From: a virus
Length of the DNA: 64,000 nucleotides
Strand: one strand, 5' to 3'
IMG/VR virus record: IMGVR_UViG_3300027983_000009
Coordinates: 18,681 to 82,680 of that record
Every line of letters begins with the position of its first letter. The first letter of the stretch is position 1. This document shows positions 29,567-63,417 of the stretch, one piece after another. Below the pieces are notes generated by a model, which was not told where the DNA came from, made no database searches, and saw nothing but the letters and a program-made list of their open reading frames with translations. A program made the translations under genes and the position numbers.

Positions 29567-29568
29567 AT

Positions 29569-33444: not shown

Positions 33445-33471
33445 AGGCAGTAAACAGAAAGAGGGAAAACC

Positions 33472-33786: not shown

Positions 33787-34090
33787 CTGCGAGTACAACG
33801 CAGCAACAGATGCGACTATCACACTTCCGGAGGGTCGACGAATTGAGGACATCAAGAGTTCGCACGTGGCGTATGATACGTTGTATATCCGTTTTAAGGA
33901 TGGCGAAGCTTGGGAGACCCGGCTCGACTCTGACAGTGAAGACAATATCGACTGGAATAGTCCGACAGCTGTATCAGTGCATGCGGTGTCAGATGACGGC
34001 GATGTAGACTACGACAGCGACCTGGCTAGCGAGTTCGGTATGGGTGACGTAGAGACTGACCAAAGCAGAGGGGGTATCCATGGCAGATAG
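33764..34090 (+). CDS. Acidic hypothetical protein, 108 aa
   Basis: ATG at 33764 behind GAGGAGACACAG. It begins MSQSFQINCEYNAATDATIT with a beta core (HVAYDTLYIRFKDGEAWE), then an Asp-rich tail (SDDGDVDYDSDLAS). Unknown. Confidence 0.55.
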   Translation: MSQSFQINCEYNAATDATITLPEGRRIEDIKSSHVAYDTLYIRFKDGEAWETRLDSDSEDNIDWNSPTAVSVHAVSDDGDVDYDSDLASEFGMGDVETDQSRGGIHGR

Positions 34091-34520: not shown

Positions 34521-34723
34521 TGCCGGAGCACACGATTTGGCGAGATGGGAGTCTCTTCGATAAGATGGACCCGACTACACACGCGATCAAGCAGATTGCG
34601 GCCAGCTATTCGGATGATATGCACGGAAGTGTGTTTGAGGTAAGAGACGAGAACAGCGAGTCGTATTACTCTGCAGGACCTGTCACAGTACATCACGCTA
34701 AGCCGAAGGTACCTAAGAACTAG
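34520..34723 (+). CDS. Hypothetical protein, 67 aa
   Basis: ATG 6 nt after a perfect AAAGGAGGT site. The upstream open frame is not used. It contains HTIWRDGSLFDKMDPTTHAI and DDMHGSVFEVRDENSESYY. Unknown. Confidence 0.6.
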   Translation: MPEHTIWRDGSLFDKMDPTTHAIKQIAASYSDDMHGSVFEVRDENSESYYSAGPVTVHHAKPKVPKN

Positions 34724-34724
34724 A

Positions 34725-34779
34725 TTCTTTAATGTTCTTCAACCCGTTAAGTGCCTACGCAGGGGCGACATATCTGCGA
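34725..34779 (+). promoter_or_regulatory. Type A leader hairpin with an extended flank
   Basis: CGCAG/CTGCG around GGGCGACATAT (11 nt). The 5-prime flank (TCTTTAATGTTCTTCAACC) is repeated almost exactly at 36270-36325. It is 17 nt before the start at 34796. Confidence 0.75.
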
Positions 34780-34795
34780 ATAGAAAGAGGTCAAT

Positions 34796-34978
34796 ATGCA
34801 GTACGTGGAATACATCGTAGCGATTCTGTTCACAGCGGCCCCGGGTTTGGCTGCTGTGTGCGCCTTTTGTGGCAACACAGTTGACGCAGGAGAGAAGCAG
34901 CAGCGGAGAGCTGGTGCCAGGTGTGTAGCAGCTCGCTGCGCAGCACGAGCTAAGTACCTGAGAACGCTGGATGAGTGA
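34796..34978 (+). CDS. Small membrane protein with a CxxC, 60 aa
   Basis: ATG after AAAGAGG. Residues 3-23 (YVEYIVAILFTAAPGLAAVC) are hydrophobic, followed by CAFCGN and a basic part RRAGARCVAARCAARAKY. A single-pass or signal-bearing protein. Confidence 0.55.
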   Translation: MQYVEYIVAILFTAAPGLAAVCAFCGNTVDAGEKQQRRAGARCVAARCAARAKYLRTLDE

Positions 34979-34991
34979 GCCTGAGCAATGC

Positions 34992-35021
34992 ATCGCCCAC
35001 GCAGAGGCGTTATATCTGCGA
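34992..35021 (+). promoter_or_regulatory. Type A leader hairpin
   Basis: CGCAG/CTGCG around AGGCGTTATAT (11 nt). Its flanks, starting with ATGAGTGAGCC at 34971, match those of the copy at 36729, 1.7 kb away. It is 47 nt before the next start. Confidence 0.75.
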
Positions 35022-35067
35022 CGTTGGCAAATAGCAGCAAACTAAAACCCACAACGGAGTATGCAAG

Positions 35068-35343
35068 ATGCAACTAAGCACAATTAAGTACACCGACAAA
35101 GTAACCTTAACAGACCACGAAGTGACAGGTGCGGCAGCACGGAGGTGCCGCAGGCGATTCATGTTGAGTGTGAAAGAGGTTGCAGTAGCGGCTGGCTTAT
35201 CACCCGTCTACCTCGCACAGCTGGAGGCGGGAGATATAGTCTGGACGCAGCCTGTGTTGGACGCCGTTACTAATGCGATCTACAGCCAACATAACAGCTC
35301 GCTCCCGCGTAAGCGCTTTGAACATCTATCCGGACAGTACTGA
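35068..35343 (+). CDS. Small HTH (XRE-like) protein, 91 aa
   Basis: ATG after AACGGAG. The segment RRRFMLSVKEVAVAAGLSPV, then YLAQLEAGDIVW at residues 28-60 fits a helix-turn-helix of the Cro/CI type. A basic arm (RRCRRRF) precedes it. A putative transcription regulator of nearby phage genes. Confidence 0.65.
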   Translation: MQLSTIKYTDKVTLTDHEVTGAAARRCRRRFMLSVKEVAVAAGLSPVYLAQLEAGDIVWTQPVLDAVTNAIYSQHNSSLPRKRFEHLSGQY

Positions 35344-35352
35344 CCGCGGATT

Positions 35353-35370
35353 ACATTCCACAAATAGGAG
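35353..35370 (+). promoter_or_regulatory. Repeated ribosome-binding leader ACATTCCACAAATAGGAG
   Basis: An 18-nt sequence, containing TAGGAG, identical to 35777-35794. Both precede starts of unrelated genes (35379 and 35802). Likely a copied translation leader. Confidence 0.6.
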
Positions 35371-35378
35371 TACCAGAT

Positions 35379-35708
35379 ATGCGAGTAGATGTTAGTGAGC
35401 TCAGTGAGCAACCAAGCGGCGGCACGGCCGCACCACGTGTAGAGGTTATGCCCGTCTTCAGCGGCGAGTCGTTCATCAGAACGCTGTCCTATCCGGTGAT
35501 TGTTGAGGCATGGAAGAAGAAAAACAGCGGTAGAGGTAAGCGAGCCTGGCTCGTGGAATTCACCGAGAAGGAGCGAGACCTCCTGTGTAAATGGCACGCC
35601 AGGTTCCACGACTGGCACTTGGTCTCCGGCACACCGGGTCGGGTTGTAATGAAATTGACAACGCTCGAGCTGCTGCAGCGAGCTGTTAACTTCTTTGCGG
35701 CTATTTGA
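35379..35708 (+). CDS. Hypothetical protein, 109 aa
   Basis: ATG after TAGGAG. It contains VEVMPVFSGESFIRTLSYPV and KRAWLVEFTEKERDLLCKWH, then TLELLQRAVNFFAAI, a compact alpha/beta pattern. Unknown. Confidence 0.55.
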   Translation: MRVDVSELSEQPSGGTAAPRVEVMPVFSGESFIRTLSYPVIVEAWKKKNSGRGKRAWLVEFTEKERDLLCKWHARFHDWHLVSGTPGRVVMKLTTLELLQRAVNFFAAI

Positions 35709-35726
35709 ATCGCACACCAGCAACCT

Positions 35727-35772
35727 CCTCCGTTATGCATAACGGAGGCTTCGTATCTGCGGACGGCCGCAG
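35727..35772 (+). promoter_or_regulatory. 22-bp palindrome plus a type A-like hairpin
   Basis: A perfect 22-bp palindrome (35727-35748) with half-site CCTCCGTTATG, then CTTCGTAT, then CTGCGG/CCGCAG (35757-35772) with loop ACGG. It is 19 nt after one gene and 29 nt before the TTG start. It could be a protein-binding operator in DNA or a long hairpin in RNA. Confidence 0.7.
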
Positions 35773-35776
35773 CATC

Positions 35777-35794
35777 ACATTCCACAAATAGGAG
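35777..35794 (+). promoter_or_regulatory. Repeated ribosome-binding leader, second copy
   Basis: Identical 18-nt ACATTCCACAAATAGGAG, here serving the TTG start at 35802 with 7-nt spacing. Confidence 0.6.
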
Positions 35795-35801
35795 ACATAA
35801 A

Positions 35802-36101
35802 TTGAAACCGTACACAGTGATCGGGCATTATAAGGACACCGGGTTGTTGTATTGCAGCATAAACCTCCACGCCGAGACCCCGGATGCTGCCGCTGCGTTG
35901 GTGGCAGAGCTGTACCCCGATGAGGACATTGCTATCAGCGCAGTGATTGCGGGGGAGCACGAGAGTGTGCTGGAGGGTGAATACCTGTTAGACACATCAA
36001 CCATAAGATCGTGGGGTACAGACGATGAAGGAAACGGTCCCAGTGTTTCAGCTGTTGTGCGGGTGCCCGACAACAGCAACAACGAAGTACAGAGCGGGTA
36101 G
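35802..36101 (+). CDS. Hypothetical protein with TTG start, 99 aa
   Basis: TTG behind TAGGAG. It starts (M)KPYTVIGHYKDTGLLYCSIN, a beta-alpha fold, with TPDAAAALVAELYPDEDIAI. An acidic middle follows. Unknown. It overlaps the next gene by 77 nt. Confidence 0.5.
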   Translation: MKPYTVIGHYKDTGLLYCSINLHAETPDAAAALVAELYPDEDIAISAVIAGEHESVLEGEYLLDTSTIRSWGTDDEGNGPSVSAVVRVPDNSNNEVQSG

Positions 36102-36258
36102 CAGGTGCTATCTGGACTTTATCTTCAGCGGACTTGTCCCAGCTAAAGTCCTGCGTGTGCTTGTATCCGGTCGCGGGTTCGTTAGCACAGAGGGTAGAGT
36201 CGAGGTTGAAGTCACAGAGTCCCGTGGTCCGTATAAAAAGGGTGAAGTTTCAAAGTAG
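36025..36258 (+). CDS. RGPYKKGE-type small protein, 77 aa
   Basis: ATG at 36025, overlapping the previous gene; no strong ribosome binding site. Residues 24-75 (YRAGSRCYLDFIFSGLVPAK, then VEVEVTESRGPYKKGE) resemble a family of small phage proteins ending in TRGPYRRGE, unknown function. Start uncertain (GTG at 36043 is an option). Confidence 0.5.
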   Translation: MKETVPVFQLLCGCPTTATTKYRAGSRCYLDFIFSGLVPAKVLRVLVSGRGFVSTEGRVEVEVTESRGPYKKGEVSK

Positions 36259-36269
36259 GTCAGCTGATG

Positions 36270-36325
36270 CTTCTTTAATGTTCTTCAACCAGTTAAGTGC
36301 CTACGCAGGGGCGTCATATCTGCGT
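36270..36325 (+). promoter_or_regulatory. Type A leader hairpin with extended flank, second copy
   Basis: CGCAG/CTGCG around GGGCGTCATAT. The 5-prime flank matches 34725-34750 at almost every position. A small 26-codon frame starts at the conserved ATG in the flank but is not conserved as a protein end. Confidence 0.75.
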
Positions 36326-36420
36326 ATTGGAGCCGGCCAGCGTGGTCGTGCCGCCTAAGCACGTTATTCGTAGGCAGTATTCCACCAGTATCAACACAGC
36401 GTATGAATGGGAGAAAGACG

Positions 36421-36693
36421 ATGACAGAAAATAATCCAGGTGCGTGTGGCGGGGGTCAGTGCAGCCCGAAACGCGTACCGTACAAACCACCGCAAGCAAC
36501 GGTTATTAAGCGGCACACATTTTTCACAGCTGAAGAACTGGCGACGGAATTGGAAATGGATGCAGTCGAGATGCCGGGTAGGCAGCCCACCGTATTGTAT
36601 CTGGCACAAGACGTACAGAGTGGTGTGGCTGGTGAGGCGGTTGTAGCGTGGGTTCTTTGCGACGCGGTTAAACTATTCGGAAGACGGTCCTAG
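36421..36693 (+). CDS. Hypothetical protein, 90 aa
   Basis: The ATG at 36421 is behind GGGAGAAAG; an ATG at 36403 precedes it. It contains a Gly-rich start (ENNPGACGGGQCSPKRVPYK), then HTFFTAEELATELEMDAVEM, and VLYLAQDVQSG. Unknown. Confidence 0.55.
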   Translation: MTENNPGACGGGQCSPKRVPYKPPQATVIKRHTFFTAEELATELEMDAVEMPGRQPTVLYLAQDVQSGVAGEAVVAWVLCDAVKLFGRRS

Positions 36694-50713: not shown

Positions 50714-52162
50714 ATGAGTGATTCAGTTTTTGTAGATGGCAATCTCCCTGTACAGTATTCGTCTGCAGAGGAGCTTGCAACCCTGCTTGAGCGGGCGGTA
50801 CCGGAGATAGAGTCTCTGCAGCGGCAGCTTCGTGAGCTGCTCCAGCGACTCAGTGATGGGTTTAATACGACGAGCTTTCATGGGGGTATTCAAGTCTGTG
50901 GAGTGGGTGACCCGATACAGATTCGCCGAGAGCTAAAGCGGGCAGCGTGGCGGGTTATTTTTGACAAGCTGGATATACAGCCATATTACAGCCTGAAGAG
51001 GCTGAAGAAGATGCACGAGGCACTGTCTGCGGACGTCGACAAGCGTGGCCCTGATAGCGAGGGAATAGATACGATGCCGGATATCACCGCAGAGAGTATG
51101 CGGCAGATTGTCAGCGGCATCCGGGTAGACCGGGACATGTACATCACAGAAAAAGTCTGCGAGGTCTACCAGAAGATGAAGCCATCGCTTCGGGATCAGT
51201 ACAAGACGAATATCCGCAACCGGTGGAAGCTGAGCGACAAGGTGCTGTTCTCGAACATGGTTAGCCTGCACTCCGGCTCCCAGTTCAGTATAAGCTGCAC
51301 CACCAATACCAGCATGTTGCACGGGCTGGATATTGCGATGCATTATTTTGACGGTAAACCCGTTCCGACCGGGTACAGATCCCCCCTGATGGAGGAGCTG
51401 CACATGAATAACGGGAAAGGTGAGACAGAGTACTTCTCGTTCAGATGCTTTAAGAATAGAGCACTACACCTGAAGTTACTGCGGTCGGATCTTGTTGCTT
51501 TGTTTAACCAACGCTGCGGGCACCCTAGGGCGCTACCAGGTCGAACAGAAGATCCGTATCAGGCTGGTGATTTGGAGTACGACTTCACTCACATCGCACC
51601 AGGTACAGATTACGAGCTGTTTGAGACACCTCAAGAGCTGGCTGAGGAGATGTGCGACATCGCAGATGTCAGCCGACACGACAGGGTACTCGAACCGTCC
51701 TGCGGTAAGTTACGGATTGCGTTTGCGGCAGCAAAGCGGGGTGCGCTGGTGCACGGCTACGAGTTGCAGCAACAACTTACGACGACGAGTAAGGTGTACG
51801 AAATGTGCTATAAAGCTGGTTACGATGAGCTGTATACCAGCATCTGTGTGCAGAAGGCGGATTTCCTGAAAACGGTATCGTCGGAGTACATGGAGTACGA
51901 CAGCGTGTTGATGAACCCGCCGTTTTCTCGCGGGAGAGCTGCAGCCCATATCCGGCATGCCTGGTCGTTCCTGAAGACTGGCGGTGTGTTGGTGGCCATA
52001 GCGGACGCCGGTATCACATTCCGGCAACGGTCTGCAGACACGGAGTTCCGAGCGTGGCTGGACAGCATTAACTCCGAGGTGCTAGAGCTACCAGCTGGGG
52101 CATTCAAGGAATCTGGCACAAGTGTTAACGCTGTGCTGCTGATACTAAGAAAGTACACATGA
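50714..52162 (+). CDS. DUF4942-type protein with an N6-adenine methyltransferase domain, 482 aa
   Basis: ATG behind GAGGGG. Residues 1-260 fit the DUF4942 region: helical, then RLKKMHEALSADVDK, WKLSDKVLFSNM and YFSFRCFKNRALHLKLLRSD. Residues 290-480 form a class I methyltransferase with a SAM site EPSCGKLRIAFAA (EPSAGxG-like) and the catalytic NPPF motif at about residue 400 (VLMNPPFSRGRAAAHIRHAW). Such phage enzymes can protect phage DNA against host restriction; the target sequence is unknown. Divergent from the minus-strand gene, 11 nt apart. Confidence 0.8.
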   Translation: MSDSVFVDGNLPVQYSSAEELATLLERAVPEIESLQRQLRELLQRLSDGFNTTSFHGGIQVCGVGDPIQIRRELKRAAWRVIFDKLDIQPYYSLKRLKKMHEALSADVDKRGPDSEGIDTMPDITAESMRQIVSGIRVDRDMYITEKVCEVYQKMKPSLRDQYKTNIRNRWKLSDKVLFSNMVSLHSGSQFSISCTTNTSMLHGLDIAMHYFDGKPVPTGYRSPLMEELHMNNGKGETEYFSFRCFKNRALHLKLLRSDLVALFNQRCGHPRALPGRTEDPYQAGDLEYDFTHIAPGTDYELFETPQELAEEMCDIADVSRHDRVLEPSCGKLRIAFAAAKRGALVHGYELQQQLTTTSKVYEMCYKAGYDELYTSICVQKADFLKTVSSEYMEYDSVLMNPPFSRGRAAAHIRHAWSFLKTGGVLVAIADAGITFRQRSADTEFRAWLDSINSEVLELPAGAFKESGTSVNAVLLILRKYT

Positions 52163-52944
52163 CTAATAGACCGGCAGTTAAATTGGCAGATAGGAAATAC
52201 CTTCAGAAACTAAAAAAGGAGGGCCGGCTTCGCGGCACGGTAGACGAAGCACTACAAAAGCGAGGAGGTAGAGCTAGAAGACGATCGGATTACGAAATCT
52301 GGTGCGAAAAGCGGAGCCTGCGGCTACCTAGAGTTGTGTTAGCTGTTGGCGACGATACATCAGCGAGGTTGAGTAGCCTCGCACGTGCTATGTACCCCCG
52401 CAGACAGCGATGGGTTCACAACGTTGTAGCTACAAACAACCATAAAGATAAGCAGCTGGATATCACAGCAGAGTCTGATGGTAGGTACTCCAGCAGATGT
52501 ACCTATAAGAAAGTTAACTATGTGTTGTCTATCCGGTCGTTTTGTGTAGTGGGCAGACACAGACTTCTCTACTTCCATGGTGACGGACATACAGCAATCA
52601 GGCTACCTAAAGGGTTCTACTTCACCGCTTTTGGGGGGTTCTTGAATGTTCGCAGCGAGTTAAAGAAGTACGCTGCACAGTTCTTGCGCATACCGACTGG
52701 GGATAGACTTCTCCACATCGGCAGATGTAGTAAGACAGTTTTACGGAACGCATTTGAAGTAAAGCTGATGGACGCGGAGGAGGAGCGCAACAAGGGGCGA
52801 CTAGAGAGGAAAATGAAGAAGACGATGCTCAGACTCAGCAAAACAAAGATATCTGTGCGGTGTGTGTTTGCTGGTACAAGTGTTACACTCGTACGCGTAC
52901 CAACGCAGCCAGACAAGAGTTGCGTGATCATCGAGGGGCTATAG
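52159..52944 (+). CDS. Basic hypothetical protein, 261 aa
   Basis: ATG overlapping the previous stop. It has a basic N-terminal region (KKEGRLRGTVDEALQKRGGR), a beta-rich core (HRLLYFHGDGHTAIRLPKGF; GFLNVRSELKKYAAQFLRIP), and a long charged helix (ERNKGRLERKMKKTMLRLSK). It may bind nucleic acid. No family. Confidence 0.6.
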   Translation: MTNRPAVKLADRKYLQKLKKEGRLRGTVDEALQKRGGRARRRSDYEIWCEKRSLRLPRVVLAVGDDTSARLSSLARAMYPRRQRWVHNVVATNNHKDKQLDITAESDGRYSSRCTYKKVNYVLSIRSFCVVGRHRLLYFHGDGHTAIRLPKGFYFTAFGGFLNVRSELKKYAAQFLRIPTGDRLLHIGRCSKTVLRNAFEVKLMDAEEERNKGRLERKMKKTMLRLSKTKISVRCVFAGTSVTLVRVPTQPDKSCVIIEGL

Positions 52945-52945
52945 T

Positions 52946-53335
52946 ATGCAAATAACACTACAGCCTCCTGTACTACCAAGAACCGCACTAGGTGATAAAA
53001 ATCAGTTAGTGCGACTGGCTGGGATACCGCAGCACGATAAGAGCTATAACCGCATTGCTGTTCTGACTAGAAGAACAGAAGACGGTACTAGCTACGGTAC
53101 ATGGGTGTTTATGGGGTGGAGCTACGGCATGCGTAACATATCGTGGGGTGAGTGGATGCATGTTTTTCTAGTTATGCGTGGGGAGTTATCTAAAAACCTT
53201 CCGGTTTACTATTACGCAACCGAAGCAGAGGATGAAAGAAGTACAAATGACTACGAAAAAGAAAACGAAACGAACTACCAAAAAGGCGACCCTGCCGACA
53301 GGTATCGGTCCGCACGAGATCGTGCAGCCCTTTAA
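52946..53335 (+). CDS. Hypothetical protein starting MQITL, 129 aa
   Basis: ATG after GGGGCTATAGT. It starts MQITLQPPVLPRTALGDKNQ, then YGTWVFMGWSYGMRNISWGE. The last part is charged (DERSTNDYEKENETNYQKGD) and overlaps the next gene. Function unknown. Confidence 0.5.
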   Translation: MQITLQPPVLPRTALGDKNQLVRLAGIPQHDKSYNRIAVLTRRTEDGTSYGTWVFMGWSYGMRNISWGEWMHVFLVMRGELSKNLPVYYYATEAEDERSTNDYEKENETNYQKGDPADRYRSARDRAAL

Positions 53336-54098
53336 CGAGCAGTTCAAGTTCCCCGGTGGCGGCAAAAGCATTACGTTTGACGCAGAGAGTTACACAGCTT
53401 GGCTGCATACCGTGTTACCGGTAGTAAAAGATTTGACGCCGTGCAGCGGACTAACCATGGAGGTGATTGCAGAGAACGGTGTCCCTGTAGGCGACTACTT
53501 GTTGTATGCTCGCGAGATGCCGTTGTGGTACTGGGGCTCTTATTGGGGTGGTATTGGTTTCGCTACGTTGCCTAGTGAAAACCAGTACGCGAAAAGGTTA
53601 ACGCTGCAGATCTACCGTGGCACAACGTCTGCGAATATTGGGTTCTCGGCCCCTGTGGTGATACCTGTGTTGTGCGAGAAGCGGTACGGTATGCCGGAAG
53701 TGTGGATGTCGCTGACACCTAATGAGATCCTAACTCTTCGTGGGCAGGTTCGCCGAGCTCGTGGTATTGTGGGTGTGGCAGGGCTGGGACTTGGTTGGGT
53801 GGTTCGCAGGATACTGGAGAGGCCAACAGTCAAGAAAGTGACTGTGGTAGAGCGTAATTCTGCGGTTATTGAGATGTTCGGTACACCGCTACTGCGGGAG
53901 TTCGGTGATCGGCTGCAGATTGTTAATGAGGACGCTTACGCGCACGACTGGCACCAGTATGATGTCTCACTGTGGGATATCTGGCCAGGGTACGGTGACG
54001 CAGATTTTGACAACCTGTTCACTGAGATTCGCAACAGCCTTCGCAAGGCCGGTAAGGTGTGTGTGGGTTGGGGTGACAAACTTCACGGAGTGAGCTGA
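53247..54098 (+). CDS. Class I methyltransferase-fold protein (spermidine-synthase-like), 283 aa
   Basis: The ATG at 53247 follows GAAAGAAG (53232 is an alternative). The N-terminus is Lys-rich (MTTKKKTKRTTKKATLP). The C-terminal half has GVAGLGLGWVVRRILERPTV, then KKVTVVERNSAVIEMFG and a DIWPGYGDADFDNLFTEIR block, a Rossmann-like SAM fold of the spermidine synthase or MTase type. The first beta-loop is GLGLG and the acidic VVERN fits ribose binding. The substrate is unknown. Confidence 0.65.
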   Translation: MTTKKKTKRTTKKATLPTGIGPHEIVQPFNEQFKFPGGGKSITFDAESYTAWLHTVLPVVKDLTPCSGLTMEVIAENGVPVGDYLLYAREMPLWYWGSYWGGIGFATLPSENQYAKRLTLQIYRGTTSANIGFSAPVVIPVLCEKRYGMPEVWMSLTPNEILTLRGQVRRARGIVGVAGLGLGWVVRRILERPTVKKVTVVERNSAVIEMFGTPLLREFGDRLQIVNEDAYAHDWHQYDVSLWDIWPGYGDADFDNLFTEIRNSLRKAGKVCVGWGDKLHGVS

Positions 54099-54751
54099 TG
54101 CGAGTTCTAGTGAGTTGCGAATGTTCGGGAATAGTGAGGGATGCGTTTATCGCCAACGGGCACGACGCCTGGAGCTGCGACTTCAAACCGAGCGAGCGAT
54201 CAGGTCCTCACTTGCAGTGCGACGTCTTAACTGTGTTGGATCAGGGTTGGGATCTGTGCATTAACCACCCAGACTGCACCTTTCTGACGATATCTGCGGC
54301 GTGGGCCTACACAGACGGCCCATACCATCAGAAGGTCAAACCGGGTACGCTGGTTGGGGAGCCGAGACGGCAAGCTCGTCGAGAGGCGATTCAGTTTGTG
54401 CGACAATTGTGGAATGCCCCAATTCCTCACATAGTCATCGAGAACCCTATCGGTGTACTGTCTGCGGAGTTGGGCAAGCCGCAGATAGTGCAGCCGTGGC
54501 AATTCGGTGACGACGCCAGCAAGGCGACATGTTTGTGGCTGAAAGGCGTACCACCACTACAGCTGGACCCGGCGGCAGCATGCCTGCCCAGGTTCGTTAT
54601 GCATAACGGGAAGCTGTGCAAGCGATGGGCGAATCAAACTGACTCCGGCCAGAATAGGTTAGCACCGTCAGCGAACAGGTCAGCAGATCGGGCGAGGACG
54701 TACCCGAGTCTGGCTAGAGCTATGGCAGAACAGTGGGGGCGGTTGCAGTAA
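54098..54751 (+). CDS. Phage cytosine methyltransferase-like protein, 217 aa
   Basis: ATG inside the previous stop. VLVSCECSGIVRDAFIANGH, then WDLCINHPDCTFLTISAAWA and the block PHIVIENPIGVLSAELG match a family annotated as DNA cytosine methyltransferase-like, in which the PxC pattern usually reads HPPCTYL; here it is HPDCTFL. PWQFGDDASKATCLWLKGVP is conserved in such proteins. It may methylate DNA or act on a base; the weakened motif makes this uncertain. A terminator follows. Confidence 0.65.
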   Translation: MRVLVSCECSGIVRDAFIANGHDAWSCDFKPSERSGPHLQCDVLTVLDQGWDLCINHPDCTFLTISAAWAYTDGPYHQKVKPGTLVGEPRRQARREAIQFVRQLWNAPIPHIVIENPIGVLSAELGKPQIVQPWQFGDDASKATCLWLKGVPPLQLDPAAACLPRFVMHNGKLCKRWANQTDSGQNRLAPSANRSADRARTYPSLARAMAEQWGRLQ

Positions 54752-54782
54752 TGTAGTGCGACATGCTACAGTGTCAGGATCT

Positions 54783-54829
54783 CAGCTGGGTCGGGTGTAA
54801 TACCTGACCAGCTGTTATCCTTTTTTTTT
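54783..54829 (+). terminator. Strong Rho-independent terminator
   Basis: CAGCTGG/CCAGCTG extended by TCGGGT/ACCTGA with one bulged G, loop GTAAT, and then a run of nine T. It separates the methyltransferase operon from the sugar/sulfate cluster. Confidence 0.9.
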
Positions 54830-54854: not shown

Positions 54855-55856
54855 ATGACTACTGAAGATCAAGCGATCGCCAAGATGATCGCACCCGGGA
54901 CCAAGCGTAAGAAGATTTGGCGAAATGGTGTGTTGCAGATTTTCATAACTAGAGCCTGCGATAAGAAGTGCTTTCACTGCACACAGAACTCGCAGATGGC
55001 CGGAGCCGCGGCAAAGATAACCCCAGAACAGTTGCGGCAGGCGTTAGAGTCGCTGAACTTCAAAGACGGCACCAGACCTTACTTCGGTGTCGTAGGCGCA
55101 TTTGGCGGAAATCCCCCCCTTCACCCACAGTTCGAAGAGCTCTGCAGCATTTTTCGGGAGTATGTACCCTTTGAGCAGCGAGGGATCTGGAGCAATCACC
55201 CACGCGGTCAGGGTGCGATTATGCGGCAGACCTTCAACCCGAAGGTCTCTAACTTGAATGTCCACGAGAGTAAAGAAGCTTACGACGAATTCGCCGCATC
55301 GTGGCCTGAGTGCAAGTCTGAGCTCAAGGGGTTAAAGGCGGACTCGCGACACACCCCGGCACTGGTAGCTATGCAGGATCTGGATGTGCTCCCTGGTGGT
55401 GTAGAGAACACAGAAGCTAACCGGCTTACGCTGATTGCAGACTGTGATATCAACAAGTACTGGTCTGCAATGATCTGCCCTGTGCGGAACGAGCTGCGAG
55501 CCTTTTTCTGCGAGTTAGCAGCCGCGCAAGCCATGCTGCACCAGAATAATCAGAACTGGATGGGTACAGGGCAGCCTATGCCAGATACCGGCCTGCCAGT
55601 TACCCCAGGTTGGTGGCGAGAGCCGATGGAGAGCTTCCGGCAGCAGGTAAGAGTGCACTGTCATGCGTGCGGTATCCCGTTGCGTGGTTACGGAGCACTA
55701 GCGAATGCTGGACCGCACGAGCAGATCAGCGAGACGCACATGGGTGTTTCTCGTATGAAAGACAGCCGGCAGATCATGCAGATCACCCAGCTCGTACAGC
55801 TGGGTGCTGACTATCTGGGAAAAGCAACAGACTACATCGAGAACGGGGGAGTTTAG
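54855..55856 (+). CDS. Radical SAM protein with a C-terminal Cys cluster, 333 aa
   Basis: ATG after GAGAGTAC. The CxxxCxxC motif is ACDKKCFHC (C35, C39, C42), binding the radical-SAM 4Fe-4S cluster. GVVGAFGGNPPLHP fits the GGE-like and ribose motifs. The C-terminal CDINKYWSAMICPV, then FFCELAAAQ and CHACGIPLRGYGA supply further Cys, like an auxiliary cluster (SPASM/twitch type). Leading the glycan cluster, it may modify a sugar or a peptide; the reaction is unknown. Confidence 0.8.
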   Translation: MTTEDQAIAKMIAPGTKRKKIWRNGVLQIFITRACDKKCFHCTQNSQMAGAAAKITPEQLRQALESLNFKDGTRPYFGVVGAFGGNPPLHPQFEELCSIFREYVPFEQRGIWSNHPRGQGAIMRQTFNPKVSNLNVHESKEAYDEFAASWPECKSELKGLKADSRHTPALVAMQDLDVLPGGVENTEANRLTLIADCDINKYWSAMICPVRNELRAFFCELAAAQAMLHQNNQNWMGTGQPMPDTGLPVTPGWWREPMESFRQQVRVHCHACGIPLRGYGALANAGPHEQISETHMGVSRMKDSRQIMQITQLVQLGADYLGKATDYIENGGV

Positions 55857-56444
55857 ATGACACCGGATAAGGTAAATGTCAAAGATATACACTATCTACC
55901 TCGCACATATAGTGGCCTTCTGGGGTACTCGTGGCTCGGACACCCCGAGCTGCTTTCGGTTATCCCGCAGTTACCACACACAGGTACGCTGGTCGAGGTG
56001 GGTACAGCTTCTGGTGTTACAGCAGCATTATTCTCAGCGTCGCGACCAGAGTTGCAACTTGTTTGTCTGGATACTTTCGTAGAGGCTCCCGCCCACTTAC
56101 CGACAGATAGGCCAGACTGTCGCAGCGGCGCAGACAGACGCAATGACTGGCGGCATAATGCAACCCCTCGCATGGTGTTGCTGGAGCAGACATTAGCAGA
56201 CTTTGCAAAAAGTATCCGGATAGCTGACATGGCTGTCTTCATTGATGGAGACCACTCTTATGAGGGTGTAGTAGCCGACCTGGCCGTGTGTGAGGAGTAT
56301 CTTCCAGAAGTTATCTTCTGCCACGATTACGGCGACCCACACTGGACTGGCGTGAAGCGAGCCGTAGATGAGTTCCTGATACGGTGCCCAGTTTACGGCC
56401 TCACTAACAAGTGCAATTCTGCCATCACACTGAGAAAAAAATGA
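55857..56444 (+). CDS. Class I SAM methyltransferase, family 24 type, 195 aa
   Basis: ATG directly after the previous TAG. LVEVGTASGVTAALFSASRP is the SAM-binding loop, LQLVCLDTFVEAP the second strand, and AVFIDGDHSYEGVVADL the metal/catalytic DGDHSYE block seen in Methyltransf_24. It likely methylates a sugar or small acceptor in this cluster. The stop overlaps the next ATG. Confidence 0.75.
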   Translation: MTPDKVNVKDIHYLPRTYSGLLGYSWLGHPELLSVIPQLPHTGTLVEVGTASGVTAALFSASRPELQLVCLDTFVEAPAHLPTDRPDCRSGADRRNDWRHNATPRMVLLEQTLADFAKSIRIADMAVFIDGDHSYEGVVADLAVCEEYLPEVIFCHDYGDPHWTGVKRAVDEFLIRCPVYGLTNKCNSAITLRKK

Positions 56445-57277
56445 ATCCTCGTGGCATCACCGTGTGTGTAGACTACGACGACTTATTGCAACTAACACTA
56501 CCGCAGAACCTGCAGTTTGTGTCAGAGCAGTGGGTCGTCACGTCGCCAACAGACGACAGGACACAAAAATTACTGCGGGACAAATTCCCTGCTGTTAAGG
56601 TATTTGTAACGGATGCGTTTACTCGCTACGGGGCCAGTTTTAACAAAGGCCTGGCCATGGAAGAAGCATTTACTGCCATGGGTCGCGACGGCTGGATCCT
56701 GATATGGGACGCAGACACGGTGTTCGAGAGTCGCCTGTTTTCCGGGTTCGCGGGGGTAGCTAGATTCAGTAAGGACATCCTGTACGGCTGTCGCAGACTG
56801 ATACTGACAGACCCGACTATTTACGAGGCGGACCCAGCAGCAGCGTGGCGGCAAGCGGTGAGGACAGATGACACCGACATCCCGGGCTACTTTCAGCTAT
56901 TCAACGCAGCAGCTCCGCAGCTCAAAGGTAGAGAATTTTGGTACGACCCGACTTTCGCCCACGCTGGGGGTGGGGACGCGTACTTTCACAGCCTGTGGTC
57001 GGTCAGGCGTAAACGGAGGCTGCCTATACTCGTCTTGCATTTAGGCCCTCGAGACTGCAACTGGTTCGGGAGGGTCTCCGCTCGTGTCGATGGCGGTGAC
57101 GTGGCGGGCGAGGGGCGGCAGGAGGTTGAGCTAGCTGCGCTGCGTAAATTTCAAGGGTGGAGGGATATACACAGAGGCAAGCACAAGAACGCAGACGGGA
57201 AAGTGCTGGACAGGGTAAGTGTACCGGGTGTTAAATCTACATATGTTTGGGGAAGATCCAAGCCGCCGGAGCAGTGA
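56441..57277 (+). CDS. GT-A fold glycosyltransferase-like protein 1, 278 aa
   Basis: ATG overlap (ATGA). DGWILIWDADTVFESRLF at residues 80-98 carries the DxD metal motif of GT-A enzymes, and the preceding RYGASFNKGLAMEEAF is a nucleotide-sugar binding-like helix. A C-terminal FAHAGGGDAYFHSLWSVRRK, then LHLGPRDCNWFGR matches the following gene, so the two are paralogues. Sugar donor unknown. Confidence 0.7.
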   Translation: MNPRGITVCVDYDDLLQLTLPQNLQFVSEQWVVTSPTDDRTQKLLRDKFPAVKVFVTDAFTRYGASFNKGLAMEEAFTAMGRDGWILIWDADTVFESRLFSGFAGVARFSKDILYGCRRLILTDPTIYEADPAAAWRQAVRTDDTDIPGYFQLFNAAAPQLKGREFWYDPTFAHAGGGDAYFHSLWSVRRKRRLPILVLHLGPRDCNWFGRVSARVDGGDVAGEGRQEVELAALRKFQGWRDIHRGKHKNADGKVLDRVSVPGVKSTYVWGRSKPPEQ

Positions 57278-57281
57278 TTCG

Positions 57282-58025
57282 ATGCAGTGTATTACCGTAG
57301 CAGTAGGGTACGCAGACATACTAGCAATTACATTACCAAGGAATCGACAGCACTTCAGCTGCATGCACCTTGTGACCTCAGAGGACACCCAAGACGACGC
57401 GGTAGTCGAGCTAGGTAAGCAGTTCAACTGTAGCGTGACCCGCACACCCGCCTTTTATCGTGACGGTGCATCCTTCAATAAGTTTCTGGCTGTAAATGCG
57501 GCGCTGGCAGCGGTGCGACCACGCGGCTGGTTGTGTTTCATGGATGCCGACGTTGTGTTACCGCCAACGCTACCTGTGAACGATTTCGATGCAGGTAACA
57601 TCTACAGCCCGCCACGCCGAATGCTTGTAGATACTTTTGCTGAGATACCGCCGCACACAGAGTGGGGCAGGTTACCACTCGGCCCGCCTGCGCCGCGTGG
57701 TAAAATTATGGCCGGATACACGCAAATTTTCCACACAGCGGACGTTGTGCTGCAGGCGTTACCGTGGTACGGGTCGGACTACAAGAATGCATCTGACGGG
57801 GATACGCAGTTTGCAAGGCGGTGGCCCAAAGCAAACCGGCTAAGACCAGCTTTTGACGTTTGCCATCTTGGGCGGGACTCTGTAAACTGGTGCGGCCGCG
57901 TCGCAGAATATGCGGACGGTAGCTTACCGCCGCAGGCAGGTGAGCGACTGATTCAGGTGCAGGCTTTTCTTGCTGGTAGGCGAGCGGCAGCCCGCAAAGC
58001 ACCTGAGAAGCCAAAGCGTAAGTAG
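57282..58025 (+). CDS. GT-A fold glycosyltransferase-like protein 2, 247 aa
   Basis: ATG at 57282 after CCGGAGCAG. Similar to the gene before: YRDGASFNKFLAVNAALAAV, then WLCFMDADVVLPPTLP (DxD) and CHLGRDSVNWCGR. A tandem duplicate with divergence. It ends with a basic tail (RAAARKAPEKPKRK). A small hairpin follows. Confidence 0.7.
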   Translation: MQCITVAVGYADILAITLPRNRQHFSCMHLVTSEDTQDDAVVELGKQFNCSVTRTPAFYRDGASFNKFLAVNAALAAVRPRGWLCFMDADVVLPPTLPVNDFDAGNIYSPPRRMLVDTFAEIPPHTEWGRLPLGPPAPRGKIMAGYTQIFHTADVVLQALPWYGSDYKNASDGDTQFARRWPKANRLRPAFDVCHLGRDSVNWCGRVAEYADGSLPPQAGERLIQVQAFLAGRRAAARKAPEKPKRK

Positions 58026-58026
58026 A

Positions 58027-58048
58027 AGATCGACAACGTAGTCGATCT
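58027..58048 (+). terminator. Perfect 8-bp hairpin after the glycosyltransferase pair
   Basis: AGATCGAC/GTCGATCT around AACGTA, directly after the stop. No T-run, so termination is uncertain; possibly a stabilising end. Confidence 0.45.
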
Positions 58049-58099
58049 CAGTGCGACAGTCCGGTGGTTATGCGTAGCCACCCAGCAGGAGTAGAGAAG

Positions 58100-58684
58100 A
58101 TGGAAGAGAGTACAACAACCAGCGTCGTCCCGTACAGTGAATTCGTACGAGCACTGTCTAAACCTGGTGAGGTTATGCTGGCGGAGATGACGCCGGAAAA
58201 GCTACACCTGTGGCACATGTCGAGTGCGTTGCTGGATGAGGTGGCCGAGCTTGCCGAGTGCATGGTAGACTACGACCACGGCAAGAAGACAAACGCGATT
58301 GAAGAGTTTGGCGATATGCGATTCTTTTTGCAGGGTATCTGCAACGTGATCGACGAAAACCTCAACTATACGTTTGCAGCCTGCCACGGGGTGCGAATCC
58401 GTAACAGTGATACGACTGAGACACTGATGCTGCTCATTGCTGCGGGTAAGCTGTTTGATGCAGTGAAACGCTATGTTATTTACAACGGGCAACTGGATAG
58501 AGTCAAACTCGTTGACTCGCTGGTGGAGGTTGTCCGCAGCATTACGCGGCTGTATCTGGTTGTCGAGGTGAGTGATGAGATCGTAGAGCGATCTAACCGC
58601 GTCAAGCTGGGTTTGCGGTACGCGAAGCTGACCTACGGCGACCAGGCCGCCCAGCAGCGAGCAGATAAACCTGCTGGCGAGTAA
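58100..58684 (+). CDS. MazG-like nucleotide pyrophosphohydrolase, 194 aa
   Basis: ATG at 58100 behind CAGGAG. LLDEVAELAECMVDYDHGKK, then NAIEEFGDMRFFLQGI carries the ExxE...ExxD metal motif of the MazG/all-alpha NTP-PPase family. It hydrolyses nucleotides (perhaps dUTP, ppGpp-like or modified NTPs) in the phage cycle. The C-terminal half repeats a similar helical fold with less clear motifs. Confidence 0.7.
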   Translation: MEESTTTSVVPYSEFVRALSKPGEVMLAEMTPEKLHLWHMSSALLDEVAELAECMVDYDHGKKTNAIEEFGDMRFFLQGICNVIDENLNYTFAACHGVRIRNSDTTETLMLLIAAGKLFDAVKRYVIYNGQLDRVKLVDSLVEVVRSITRLYLVVEVSDEIVERSNRVKLGLRYAKLTYGDQAAQQRADKPAGE

Positions 58685-58728
58685 CTCACTGACCGGATCT
58701 GGAATATCACACCGTGGGACGATAGGTA

Positions 58729-59502
58729 ATGGCTCATACGAAGTTTGTTTTGCAGAGTATACACAGATCCGGTGCCGGGATGTTGATGAGTGCGTTAAAC
58801 GGGCACCCCCAGTGTGCGATGCACGGGTGCCCGTTTAACGACTACAGCGAAGACCTCACTGTAGCAACCGCATGGAAGTCGCTGTTTGACGAGACTACAG
58901 AAGTCTGTGAGTACGCAGACCCAGCAGAGAATACAGCTTCCGGGTTTACCAGCTACAGATTCCCACCCGCTGCCGCTGGCGGTCGGTCTGTCAGGTGGGA
59001 GTTGACCAACTCGCTGTGGCAGTACCTGACAGATAAAGGTGCGGATACGGCAAAGGTTATTAGGCTGCACAGGAAAGACGCGATCGCCCGCGCGATCAGT
59101 GAATTCTTCGCAATCGTTACAGACATACGATCTGCACGGCTCTGTACAGACGCACTGAGGCTCTACAAAAGCAACAAACTTAAACCACGGGCCGTACCGC
59201 CGTACCTGTTTCGCACCCTTCTGGATGACTGGCTGCTCGAGCGATCACTACAATTCGGCCGGGCTGAGGTTCTTGAAGTAACCTACGAACAGTTGGAGCA
59301 GGACTGGTCTGGCAGCATTGCGACTATTCAGGAATACCTCGGGCTGCCGTGGTCTGACCTGCAACCTACGCTTGCCAAGCTCAGTGTCCCGCAACCGCAC
59401 ACCTTGGTAACTAACTGGGAAGAGATAGTACTGGCGTTCAGGAATACAGGGTACGAGCACCTGTTCGTAGACTATGCTATTAAGTGTAAAGAGGGAAGGT
59501 AG
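58729..59502 (+). CDS. Sulfotransferase-type protein 1, 257 aa
   Basis: ATG after GACGATAGG. The 5-prime phosphosulfate-binding loop appears as SIHRSGAGMLMSALNGHP (residues 10-27; usual pattern PRSGTxLLxxLLxxHP), and LHRKDAIARAISEFFA and VTYEQLEQDWSGSIATIQEY fit the 3-prime phosphate and dimer regions. It is likely to transfer sulfate from PAPS to a carbohydrate. Adjacent glycosyltransferases fit that. Confidence 0.75.
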   Translation: MAHTKFVLQSIHRSGAGMLMSALNGHPQCAMHGCPFNDYSEDLTVATAWKSLFDETTEVCEYADPAENTASGFTSYRFPPAAAGGRSVRWELTNSLWQYLTDKGADTAKVIRLHRKDAIARAISEFFAIVTDIRSARLCTDALRLYKSNKLKPRAVPPYLFRTLLDDWLLERSLQFGRAEVLEVTYEQLEQDWSGSIATIQEYLGLPWSDLQPTLAKLSVPQPHTLVTNWEEIVLAFRNTGYEHLFVDYAIKCKEGR

Positions 59503-59504
59503 CT

Positions 59505-60209
59505 GTGTTTGTTCTGCGAGGCTACACCCGCTCAGGTACAGAGATGCTGCGGTCCGCCCTGGATCAGCACCCTGACATAATATGCCACGGCCCAATATTT
59601 ACAGATAAGAACAAAGACGAGTTAGCCAAAGGTGACCCTCAGCGGCTACTCCTGGCTAAGAACCTTCGACCAACTGACGGGTTCGTGATGGGTGCCGGGC
59701 CTCCGCGTGGTGATGATGTAGTGCGGCTGGCCGTAAGCGAAATGTGGGGGTACGTAGCTTCCCAGAGTATGGCTGTAGTAGCTATCCAGCGAAGAGATAT
59801 ACTGAGGATGGTTGTATCTGACGCTATACAGCGTACTGGTCGGCCCCGCACGGTCAAGTTAAGCGACAAGCCGAACAAGACTAAACAGACACTGCTGATA
59901 AGACCGGAACAACTATTGCGAGCGGCCGCTGCAGCTCAGCAAGTTGCGGATATAACGGCAAGCCAGTTCCCCTGGGCTAAAGTGGTCTACTATGAAGATA
60001 TGCTTGCAAACTGGAATACCAAGATAGATGAGATCCTGTCTTACATAGGTGCGACTCGTATGTATCTCGGTGCCATGACCCGCCGACAGGAGGTCCGCAA
60101 GATCCGAAAAATAGTCCAGAATTACGAAGAGCTTAAAACAGAGCTGTACGGCTCGAGGCCAGAGTTGTTTGATATAGCGGAGCACACAGATGGTATCTTC
60201 AGTTACTAA
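59505..60209 (+). CDS. Sulfotransferase-type protein 2, 234 aa
   Basis: GTG start, 2 nt after the previous stop. The PSB-like loop GYTRSGTEMLRSALDQHP is intact; IQRRDILRMVVSDAIQ and VYYEDMLANWNTKIDEILSY match the other two. It is a second copy of the enzyme family; sequence differences suggest different acceptors. It overlaps the third by 20 nt. Confidence 0.75.
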   Translation: MFVLRGYTRSGTEMLRSALDQHPDIICHGPIFTDKNKDELAKGDPQRLLLAKNLRPTDGFVMGAGPPRGDDVVRLAVSEMWGYVASQSMAVVAIQRRDILRMVVSDAIQRTGRPRTVKLSDKPNKTKQTLLIRPEQLLRAAAAAQQVADITASQFPWAKVVYYEDMLANWNTKIDEILSYIGATRMYLGAMTRRQEVRKIRKIVQNYEELKTELYGSRPELFDIAEHTDGIFSY

Positions 60210-61383
60210 ACAGGTTAAAATACAACTTAAAACAACAACACCAGCATCACCTATGCTGGACAGGTACCATTTCAGTTATGTGGCTGGGTGGGTTAGACGT
60301 GTGCTGGTGACAGACCACACGGACATAGAGTTAATAGACGCACTGCTGAGCTATTCCTGCGCGGTGACAGTTATTATACCACCATCTGCAACCCTACAGA
60401 GTCTGCAGGCTGTTGCGACCGCCGCAGGCAGACCGCTGGCGGCAACTGTCGTAGTGTGTGACTTACGGGCATTCTTGTCGGCCTGCGAGCTGCAGCAATT
60501 CTTTGCTATATTTGCGACCCAGGAGACGGTTGTCGAGCTTCCCGGCTTGGCAGACCTGGCGAGGAGAGCAATAGCGTGGAACGGCACACTCCATGTGACA
60601 GGTATGAAACATGACGAGCTAACTGCCGGATCTCTACAGTGTATATCCACAGCAAGCTCGCCGATTGTGTCACTCAGAAAGGATGTAGGCTGGTTGTTGG
60701 CTACGTACCCACGTTGCGGGACCCACATGCTACTATCGGCACTGCAGCAACACTCAAAACTACAGGTTGGTACCGAGCTATTTAACCACAACACAGCGAC
60801 AGGGTCCCACAGGTTTAACACCGTTAGGCAGTCGCTGGAGGTAGGGTGGCCCAAGGCGAGCAGCGGTTTTGCAGTACACAGTTCGATAGAGGGGCCGCAG
60901 CACGCCCTCAGCATGCAGGAGACAATGCAGGGCACAGCTAATTTCTGGGAGACTATACCGGACTACACGCCGACGATACTGTTACAGCGGGATAATCTGC
61001 TGGAGCGGTATGTCTCACAAAAAGTAGCCATGGCTACACGGTCGTGGAACAGCACCGACAGCGGTAAGACGGCCAGCTCGTACGCCTCAGTGTATGTGGG
61101 CTTGGGTGAGCTAGCTGCAGACATAGCGTACGTGCGACGCTGCTACGACAAAGCCGCCGCTTATTTCAAGTACTCGCTGGTTGTGCGATATGAGGATATG
61201 TGCGAGGATCCTGTAAGAGAGTTGCGGCGGGCGCAGGAATTCCTTCGAGTAGACTGGGAGGATGTGCGGCCGCTAACCGTGAAACTGACAGCAAACACTC
61301 TCGAGATTGTAGAGAACTACACACAAGTGAAAGCTTGGTGTCGTAGAAATGGGTATGGTAATTTTCTTGTAGAGGAACAGTAA
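60190..61383 (+). CDS. Sulfotransferase-type protein 3 with an N-terminal domain, 397 aa
   Basis: ATG overlapping the previous gene. Residues 160-397 contain TYPRCGTHMLLSALQQHSKL (PSB loop with Arg-Cys-Gly), LQRDNLLERYVSQKVA and VVRYEDMCEDPVRELRRAQE, a typical sulfotransferase. Residues 1-155 form an extra part (VLVTDHTDIELIDALLSY; VVVCDLRAFLSACEL) of unknown type, possibly an acceptor-binding or regulatory domain. The stop overlaps the next ATG (TAATG). Confidence 0.75.
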   Translation: MVSSVTKQVKIQLKTTTPASPMLDRYHFSYVAGWVRRVLVTDHTDIELIDALLSYSCAVTVIIPPSATLQSLQAVATAAGRPLAATVVVCDLRAFLSACELQQFFAIFATQETVVELPGLADLARRAIAWNGTLHVTGMKHDELTAGSLQCISTASSPIVSLRKDVGWLLATYPRCGTHMLLSALQQHSKLQVGTELFNHNTATGSHRFNTVRQSLEVGWPKASSGFAVHSSIEGPQHALSMQETMQGTANFWETIPDYTPTILLQRDNLLERYVSQKVAMATRSWNSTDSGKTASSYASVYVGLGELAADIAYVRRCYDKAAAYFKYSLVVRYEDMCEDPVRELRRAQEFLRVDWEDVRPLTVKLTANTLEIVENYTQVKAWCRRNGYGNFLVEEQ

Positions 61384-62111
61384 TGCAGGGTGCACCACCA
61401 ATTGCAGCTATAATGGTGACAGGAAAAACAGTAGCCCGTTACGCACTAGCTAGAGCAGCTATGCAATCGTTTTTGTCACAAGACTATAACGGTAAGACGC
61501 ACCTGTTTATCATCAACGACAACCCTGCCCCTCTATTGGAAGAGGCAACGTCATATGCCAACGTCACGGAGGTCCGTGTCCCGTTAAGGGCCACACCCTG
61601 CACCCTCGGAGAGCTTAGAAATGTAGGCTTGGACATGGCAGCCGACGGCTTCGACTACGTTGTGCAGTGGGACGATGACGACTTCTCGTTGCCGCACAGG
61701 CTGAGTTACCAGATAAAAGAGACCACGCGAGGCACGGCCTCTATATTCAGATGGCAGACACAGTACAACCTGGCTACCGGTGCGTGTTTTGCTGGTTGCG
61801 GTAACGTGTCTACAGTTAAAGGCTTCGCAGGGACTATGTTGTTCCCAGCAACCACAAAAGCCCGGTTTCAATCAGTGGCTCGCGGTGAGGACACTTACTT
61901 TTTGCAGGCTGTAAAGCAAAAGACAACACTGCATGTGATATCAAACAGGCCAGAGATATACCTACGGCTATACCACGGTCACAACACTTGGCCAGAGTCG
62001 CACGTGATGAGGCGAAGGGCCGGCTCACGCCAGCTGCACGACAACGAGCTGGCGATTGTGCGGCAGATAGTAGAGACCAACTACCCGTGGGCGGCTAGCG
62101 GGGCTGAGTAA
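61383..62111 (+). CDS. GT2-type glycosyltransferase, 242 aa
   Basis: ATG overlap start. PIAAIMVTGKTVARYALARA, then HLFIINDNPAPLLEEAT and VVQWDDDDFSLPHRLSYQIK carry the GT-A nucleotide-sugar strand and DDDD metal motif. GEDTYFLQAVKQ resembles the GT2 acceptor-site ED motif. It probably adds a sugar to a surface glycan. Confidence 0.8.
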   Translation: MQGAPPIAAIMVTGKTVARYALARAAMQSFLSQDYNGKTHLFIINDNPAPLLEEATSYANVTEVRVPLRATPCTLGELRNVGLDMAADGFDYVVQWDDDDFSLPHRLSYQIKETTRGTASIFRWQTQYNLATGACFAGCGNVSTVKGFAGTMLFPATTKARFQSVARGEDTYFLQAVKQKTTLHVISNRPEIYLRLYHGHNTWPESHVMRRRAGSRQLHDNELAIVRQIVETNYPWAASGAE

Positions 62112-63103
62112 TGTTCAAAAAACACCCACACAGGTCAGCCTGTGTCGGAGAGCACCGAAGTGGTTGGGATTATGTGCGGTCGCATTTAGCGGCAGCGTAC
62201 ACAGCTGATGGTATAATCCTGGACGACTTTGTAGAGCGTACCTTCCTGTACGACGATAGCTGGCACAACAACCACGTGTACACGGAGCCGTGGGTTGGCA
62301 TAGCTCATCATGCCCCAGATATCCCGTCATGGTACATGGACAAGCTGCAGCTGTGGGACATGGTCCAGTCGCATAGATGGTTAGAGAGTCTGCCGCAGCT
62401 CAAGATGCTGGTCACCATGGCTCCCAATCTGCAGCGGTGGTTCAAGACGCACTACCCGCAACTCCCTGTAGTCTGCATTAAGCACCCGACAGGTAGACCG
62501 TTATTGGAGTGGACCCCAGCCAGGTTTACCCACAATCAGGAGAAGTTACTGCTGCAAGTAGGTTGGTTCTGTAGAAACACTGGCGCAATCTATCAGGTGG
62601 ACACACCTGCTGATTTTTTTCTGCGTAAGGGCCACTTGCGGCAAGCGGCCAGATGGATAGGTTACACTGAGCTGCTGTGCCAGACGAGTTTCAGGACAGC
62701 TGACTATAACCGCGGCAGGACGATAGTCCTGGAACCGCAGGGGAATGCAGACTACGACCACCTGCTGGCTAAAAACGTAGTGTTTATTGAGGTAATTACA
62801 GCAGTAGCGAACAATACAGTGGTGGAGTGTATTGCCAGGAATACACCCATTGTGATAAACAGACACCCGGGGCCTGCGTTTTATCTTGGGGAAGAGTATC
62901 CTCTGTTCTATGATGACATTCAGGATGTCCCTAAATTGTTAACACTGGAAAGAATACTTGAAGCACATTACTATTTGCGTCAGCTGGATAAGACATGGAT
63001 TCGCGGGAGGTGTTTTGTGGAGTCGCTGCTCAGCAGTTGCGAACTTCACGGAATACCGACTCGCGACAGGTTGTCGACAGATGACGCACTTGTGTGTGTT
63101 TAG
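62111..63103 (+). CDS. GT-B fold glycosyltransferase-like protein, 330 aa
   Basis: ATG overlaps the previous stop. The last third (FIEVITAVANNTVVECIARN, then TPIVINRHPGPAFYLGEEYP) resembles the C-terminal nucleotide-sugar domain of GT-B (GT1/GT4-type) enzymes, where the E and the HPGPAxxYLG region bind donor. The N-terminal part has W/H-rich segments (HNNHVYTEPWVGIAHHAPDI). Donor unknown. Confidence 0.65.
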   Translation: MFKKHPHRSACVGEHRSGWDYVRSHLAAAYTADGIILDDFVERTFLYDDSWHNNHVYTEPWVGIAHHAPDIPSWYMDKLQLWDMVQSHRWLESLPQLKMLVTMAPNLQRWFKTHYPQLPVVCIKHPTGRPLLEWTPARFTHNQEKLLLQVGWFCRNTGAIYQVDTPADFFLRKGHLRQAARWIGYTELLCQTSFRTADYNRGRTIVLEPQGNADYDHLLAKNVVFIEVITAVANNTVVECIARNTPIVINRHPGPAFYLGEEYPLFYDDIQDVPKLLTLERILEAHYYLRQLDKTWIRGRCFVESLLSSCELHGIPTRDRLSTDDALVCV

Positions 63104-63117
63104 ATGAGGGTGCAGGG

Positions 63118-63417
63118 ATGGCAGCTAATGTAGCGGAAGAGATCAGAGCCGGGGCTATCAGTAAAGTGGTAGCAGATAAAGGATTCGGATTCATACAACC
63201 AGACATGCCGATAGGGTCGCAGCCCGTGGCGGACCTGTTCTTTCATGCCGCGTCGGTAGTACCTCGAGAGTTATTCGACCTACTTAAAGCTGGCGTGCGG
63301 GTGGTCTACAGACTGCAGATTTCAGAGCGAGACAATAAGCTGAGAGCTGGCGACGTGCGGCTGCCTACTCTGGAGATCCGTGTAAATGAAAAGCCAGAAA
63401 TCATCTCGGCCGATTAA
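63118..63417 (+). CDS. Cold-shock domain protein, 99 aa
   Basis: ATG at 63118 after GCAGGG; the upstream frame is not used. GAISKVVADKGFGFIQPDMP, then DLFFHAASVVPRELFDLLKA matches RNP1 (KGFGFI) and RNP2 (DLFFHAA) of cold-shock domains. It binds single-stranded RNA or DNA; here probably an RNA chaperone for phage transcripts. Confidence 0.85.
   Translation: MAANVAEEIRAGAISKVVADKGFGFIQPDMPIGSQPVADLFFHAASVVPRELFDLLKAGVRVVYRLQISERDNKLRAGDVRLPTLEIRVNEKPEIISAD

Follow-up and report, generated by a model that had tools for sequence, protein, structure and literature searches.

Radical SAM enzymes encoded together with glycosyltransferases have been described in SAR11 myophages, where the gene cassettes lie in the host-recognition region and the glycosyltransferases are argued to modify the host O-chain (PMC7029224). 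The cluster described here is similar in that large phages carry radical SAM and glycosyltransferase genes together in a variable part of the genome; however, the pelagimyophage paper names no sulfotransferases, and the likeness to the radical SAM protein reported here is one of gene type. A second point of reference is T4, with its alpha and beta glucosyltransferases and its 5hmC pathway; the glycosyltransferases of T4-like phages modify 5hmC (PMC6024577). Phage glycosyltransferases are common to both systems, but the T4 pathway includes neither a radical SAM enzyme nor sulfotransferases, and the present record has no recognised hydroxymethylase. Phage sulfotransferases as such are already known (PMC8290583), and literature searches for a phage system of radical SAM enzymes, glycosyltransferases and sulfotransferases found only general surveys.

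Gene content of the cluster

The window, which is the whole 64,000-nucleotide stretch that was analysed, corresponds to bases 18,681-82,680 of an 82,680-bp IMG/VR record (IMGVR_UViG_3300027983_000009); it ends where the record ends, and the downstream context is missing. The source genome is that of a large, uncultivated tailed phage. A portal-like protein that is distantly related to proteins of Vibrio phage D181 and Salmonella phage Arash (22-26% identity) is encoded within the first 18.7 kb of the record, there are genes for a UvsX-like recombinase and a RuvC-like resolvase, and neither an Rfam scan nor a tRNA scan gave a match in the window. The ten open reading frames proposed by an earlier, sequence-only reading of this DNA were all recovered where it had placed them, all on the + strand, and the strong terminator that it put before the cluster is present as a hairpin followed by nine T residues that parts the cluster from the preceding gene. 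The cluster genes form a single collinear run without large gaps. That reading had treated them as one operon and one pathway, which comparison with other phages does not support (see below); the cluster is two adjacent and separable modules, A (radical SAM enzyme, Methyltransf_24 and one or more GT-A enzymes) and B (three sulfotransferases, ST1-ST3, followed by a GT2, a GT-B-like protein and a cold-shock-domain protein). The features are as follows.

54776..54829, +, intrinsic terminator, long hairpin and T9 (sequence and RNA fold, z = -3.25)
54855..55856, +, module A radical SAM enzyme; Radical_SAM PF04055, 27.6 bits; CxxxCxxC formed by C35, C39 and C42
55857..56444, +, module A class I SAM methyltransferase (Methyltransf_24); 39.7 bits, above cut-off
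56441..57277, +, module A GT-A glycosyltransferase a (GTa); DxD (D100/D102), GGD and HxG; ORF open from 56411
57282..58025, +, module A GT-A glycosyltransferase b (GTb); paralogue of GTa, 34% identity; ORF open from 57219
58064..58684, +, MazG-like NTP pyrophosphohydrolase; phrog_229, 4.8e-12; ExxE...ExxD visible
58729..59502, +, module B sulfotransferase 1 (ST1); Sulfotransfer_3, 33.4 bits; PAPS loop HRSGAGML; R115/S124; Cys at the catalytic Glu position
59505..60209, +, module B sulfotransferase 2 (ST2); Sulfotransfer_3, 28.8 bits; PAPS loop TRSGTEML; Arg/Ser kept; Pro at the catalytic Glu position
60190..61383, +, module B sulfotransferase 3 (ST3); Sulfotransfer_3, 30.6 bits, and Sulfotransfer_1, 26.5 bits; PRCGTHML, Arg/Ser and Glu (VGTELF) kept
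61383..62111, +, module B GT2-type glycosyltransferase; PF00535, 0.0027, below cut-off; WDDDD; 43% identical in G001
62111..63103, +, module B GT-B-like protein; C-terminal motif only; 46-48% identical in G001
63094..63417, +, module B cold-shock-domain protein; PF00313, 31.8 bits; closes the block in both phages

Family matches were found for the enzymes of the earlier inventory, including the MazG-like protein, for which PHROG 229 is the single family call; the exception is the GT-B enzyme, which is read from its C-terminal motif and has no Pfam match. Of the overlapping starts described previously, the large ones of GTa and GTb depend on upstream GTG codons; conserved alignment starts favour ATG 56441 and about ATG 57282 respectively.

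There are several other features elsewhere in the window. A 663-aa protein (31130-33121, + strand) has a Cas12f1/TnpB-like zinc-ribbon end (PF07282, 1.6e-4); its likely RuvC-I position reads VAAHLGYR, without an Asp, and it may therefore be a nuclease-dead TnpB-like protein. A repeat search of window positions 29000-36500 revealed no CRISPR array. The 27-nt repeat GCCTACGCAGGGGCGNCATATCTGCG is present at four window sites (31019, 34753, 34995 and 36299) and is possibly a shared regulatory element.

Module A and its relatives in phages and bacteria

The radical SAM assignment proposed earlier is borne out by a Radical_SAM match (4e-6) that scores just under the curated cut-off (27.6 against 29.5 bits) together with the CxxxCxxC motif. 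This motif and the GG motif of the superfamily are invariant or nearly so among 79 viral homologues, in all of which seven Cys residues (C35, C39 and C42 of the SAM cluster, and C197, C219, C269 and C272) are invariant; these suggest one auxiliary Fe-S cluster, of which the latter four are the likely ligands. The best solved match of the radical SAM profile is the radical SAM dehydrogenase BtrN (PDB 4m7t), but it is very weak (0.0027) and the alignment is restricted to the radical SAM core. The extra conserved Cys residues, together with weak NCBIfam matches to SPASM maturases, raise the prospect of a biosynthetic cluster for a small molecule or a RiPP-like peptide, which we regard as very improbable; the maturase matches span only the radical SAM core and lie far below their cut-offs, and no precursor peptide, transporter or protease is recognised among the ORFs. 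The methyltransferase is of the family 24 type as first proposed, scoring above the Methyltransf_24 cut-off, and the two GT-A enzymes are indeed a paralogous pair with GT2-like matches. These matches, like that of the module B GT2, are all below the Pfam cut-offs, and a GT-A profile gave no match in the PDB; the GT-A score is under the Pfam cut-off, with the Asp residues of the DxD metal site (D100 and D102) invariant across 56 proteins.

The set of radical SAM, methyltransferase and glycosyltransferase genes recurs in dozens of metagenomic phages. An alignment of the radical SAM protein matched 268 stretches of viral contigs, and the 80 best were carried forward; among the 78 of these loci with a readable radical SAM gene, a GT-A gene is nearby in 52 and a class I methyltransferase gene lies within 3 kb in 51, counts that are to be read with the contigs being mostly fragments and the ORF picker overlooking some genes (15 GT-A loci have no chosen GT-A ORF). 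A reciprocal search starting from the GT-A protein, regardless of the radical SAM gene, found the latter close by in 50 of 65 loci, and in 48 of these it is upstream on the same strand; many contigs are common to both searches, so this is a check of direction and not an independent sample. With both searches pooled, the GT-A gene is downstream in 61 of 63 non-identical pairs from viral contigs, and in one instance (L006) the two are fused in a single ORF. The distance matrices of the two proteins are correlated (Mantel r 0.47, 0 of 2000 permutations); the sequences are related, and related loci share neighbours, so this result shows joint inheritance and not by itself function. Searches of 50,697 deposited phage records with the radical SAM protein and with GTa gave no match for either.

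Bacterial relatives of the radical SAM protein sit in polysaccharide loci, their 104 neighbours being richest in the GT2, epimerase/dehydratase, Polysacc_synt_2 and FkbM methyltransferase families. A GT-A partner of the phage type is almost absent beside them (1 of 67), and the phage reaction may thus differ.

The sulfotransferases and the rest of module B

All three sulfotransferases, which had been proposed as tandem paralogues, exceed the PF13469 (Sulfotransfer_3) cut-off. Each has the residues on which PAPS binding depends, namely the PAPS loop together with an Arg and a Ser contacting the 3'-phosphate; a lack of such residues, named by the earlier reading as what would refute its proposal, did not occur. 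Residues R13, G15, R115 and S124 of ST1 are invariant in the alignment of ST1-ST3, with GA instead of GT in the ST1 loop. The best PDB match of the sulfotransferase profile is the LPS sulfotransferase NodH (PDB 9vki; E 1e-8), with which the module B proteins have in common the PAPS loop and an Arg/Ser site of the same spacing, and ST3 the catalytic Glu. The likeness is at the profile level only, however, and the phage proteins differ in being encoded in three tandem copies, in an additional domain (about 165 aa) at the N terminus of ST3, and in the absence of the NodH catalytic Glu from ST1 and ST2. The position of this residue, which we take to be the catalytic base of TPST, was placed through alignments with the 'GEE' of TPST and the 'HDE' of NodH; ST3 and the three proteins of the related record G001 (see below) all have Glu there, whereas it is replaced by Cys (ST1) and by Pro (ST2) in the other two. 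Both ST1 and ST2 have a His two residues before the replaced position, and they could use this nearby His or be impaired. ST3 is the likeliest of the three to be an active transferase, with ST1 and ST2 having diverged. A structure model of ST3 has an overall pLDDT of 56, with the catalytic segments at about 80-90 and the N-terminal 165 residues not resolved in the model; only sulfotransferases, TPST2 and Stf0 among them, head its list of PDB matches, and phage sulfotransferases are among its best viral matches. Direct searches of phage records with the cluster DNA, ST1 and ST3 gave no match, nor did a single-protein viral search with ST3.

That three sulfotransferases in one phage operon are unusual agrees with their distribution, since three in a row are rare: a scan of viral contigs with the sulfotransferase alignment found one other locus (L167, in the 184-kb record G001), and profiles of the sulfotransferases, GT2 and GT-B-like proteins matched just this one other viral record. 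The gene order in G001 is the same, with three sulfotransferases, GT2, GT-B-like and cold-shock proteins at 25-48% identity, and the cold-shock-domain gene (63094-63417) is therefore part of the conserved block. The 62111-63103 protein has no profile match, a GT-B-like profile found nothing in the PDB, and its structure model (pLDDT 31) is one from which two Rossmann domains are not readable. G001 and our phage also share the portal (58%), UvsX (47%), a glycosyltransferase encoded immediately behind the portal (40%) and further proteins, indicating that G001 is a distant member of the same lineage; by this comparison module B looks to have been kept vertically. Neither a radical SAM nor a GT-A gene of the module A type was found in G001, and module A is thus separable.

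There are further enzyme genes of note in the two phages. In G001, a methyltransferase and a tandem pair of PhyH dioxygenases are encoded upstream of the sulfotransferases (L167 5087-7243). A protein whose motif resembles GT25 is encoded at window positions 7544-8317 (+ strand), about 50 kb from the sulfotransferases, and its G001 homologue (39%) directly adjoins them. The gene right after the portal (L004 17783-18607, + strand) is GT2-like, as is its similarly placed G001 counterpart, and the product may glycosylate a virion protein.

Given this separability, the modules could be functionally unrelated and merely adjacent, with B a lineage trait (e.g. virion glycan sulfation) and A a mobile accessory set acting elsewhere. 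G001 has B without the radical SAM and GT-A genes, and many phages have A without B, with a Sulfotransfer_3 match of any kind in only 5 of 49 radical SAM records. However, all of the cluster genes here are in one collinear run, and a small sulfotransferase-like gene adjoins the radical SAM gene in three other phages; we judge the explanation unlikely. The small proteins concerned have a GTGRCGT/S loop (L101 8656-9375, L117 11867-12619 and L127 9414-9998), and a profile of the six module B sulfotransferases detected no further sulfotransferases in radical SAM loci.

Possible functions of the two modules

The polysaccharide loci of the bacterial radical SAM relatives, and NodH as the nearest sulfotransferase of solved structure, make glycan tailoring the reading that we prefer, and we consider it somewhat probable that these are two adjacent phage glycan-tailoring modules acting on a surface glycan of the host envelope or the virion. 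The gene content, the catalytic motifs, the division into two modules and the gene linkage are observed, and from them we infer the following substrates, product, location and benefit. The GT-A enzyme or enzymes of module A would use a nucleotide-sugar as donor and attach its sugar to an acceptor; the radical SAM enzyme would act on this sugar, or on a precursor of it, by a radical reaction (oxidation, epimerisation or dehydration), and the methyltransferase would cap the modified sugar. The GT2 and GT-B-like enzymes of module B would attach further sugars, and the sulfotransferases would move sulfate from host PAPS to the glycan. The product would change phage recognition, most likely through an altered glycan on the envelope of the infected host and less likely through decoration of the virion. 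Glycan tailoring had been proposed before, and this part is supported by the polysaccharide loci, the NodH profile match and the ST3 model matches, whereas the single pathway is not; a single product bearing sulfate as well as methyl groups, and its place on virion or envelope, we would likewise infer. No gene for a lipid carrier, flippase, nucleotide-sugar synthesis or membrane anchoring was recognised in the cluster, which speaks against this reading, as do the glycosyltransferase scores below the Pfam cut-offs, the replaced Glu of ST1 and ST2 and the near-absence of the GT-A partner beside the bacterial radical SAM relatives.

An alternative is that the glycosyltransferases, radical SAM enzyme and methyltransferase decorate a hydroxymethylated base of the phage DNA and counter restriction, as the T4 precedent might suggest. 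DNA methyltransferase-like genes lie directly upstream of the cluster (window 50714-54751, + strand; a DUF4942/N6-type protein, a phrog_15480 protein and a phrog_757 protein), and a divergent ThyX-like protein (window 1975-2922, + strand; PF02511, 30.7 bits) keeps the idea under consideration. Two radical SAM phages (L264 and L265) encode a TS-like protein with Asp at the dCMP-specificity position of the T4 hydroxymethylase, this residue being of the dCMP type (PMC6400193), but in the readable TS-like proteins of radical SAM phages the residue is mostly Asn, and the TS-like genes are 11-29 kb from the radical SAM gene in the cases compared by coordinates. A PF00303 hydroxymethylase was found neither in the record of the window, which is incomplete, nor in G001; a Tet/JBP search of 50 records gave no match, but no control matched either; no literature report of sulfated DNA bases was found; and the bacterial radical SAM relatives, as noted, point to polysaccharide. 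On balance we think DNA modification distinctly unlikely. Among the TS-like genes encountered, G008 has a similarly divergent ThyX-like copy and a TS-like protein with the dCMP-type Asp, and L277 (G012:7200-9500) has a 645-aa TS-like ORF in which what looks like the end of an intein (VLVHN/C) immediately precedes the catalytic Cys.

Beyond the glycan-tailoring reading of this cluster, we suggest tentatively, and with less confidence, that the radical SAM, methyltransferase and GT-A genes could represent an unrecognised and widely shared phage system for counter-recognition, one that makes a sugar modified by radical chemistry and carried on DNA, the virion or a host glycan; sulfation would be a lineage-specific addition to this system. 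The radical SAM and GT-A set is common in metagenomic phages and gave no match in the deposited phage records searched. Phage-driven sulfation of a glycan, if true, would be a clear route to altered recognition by other phages or hosts.
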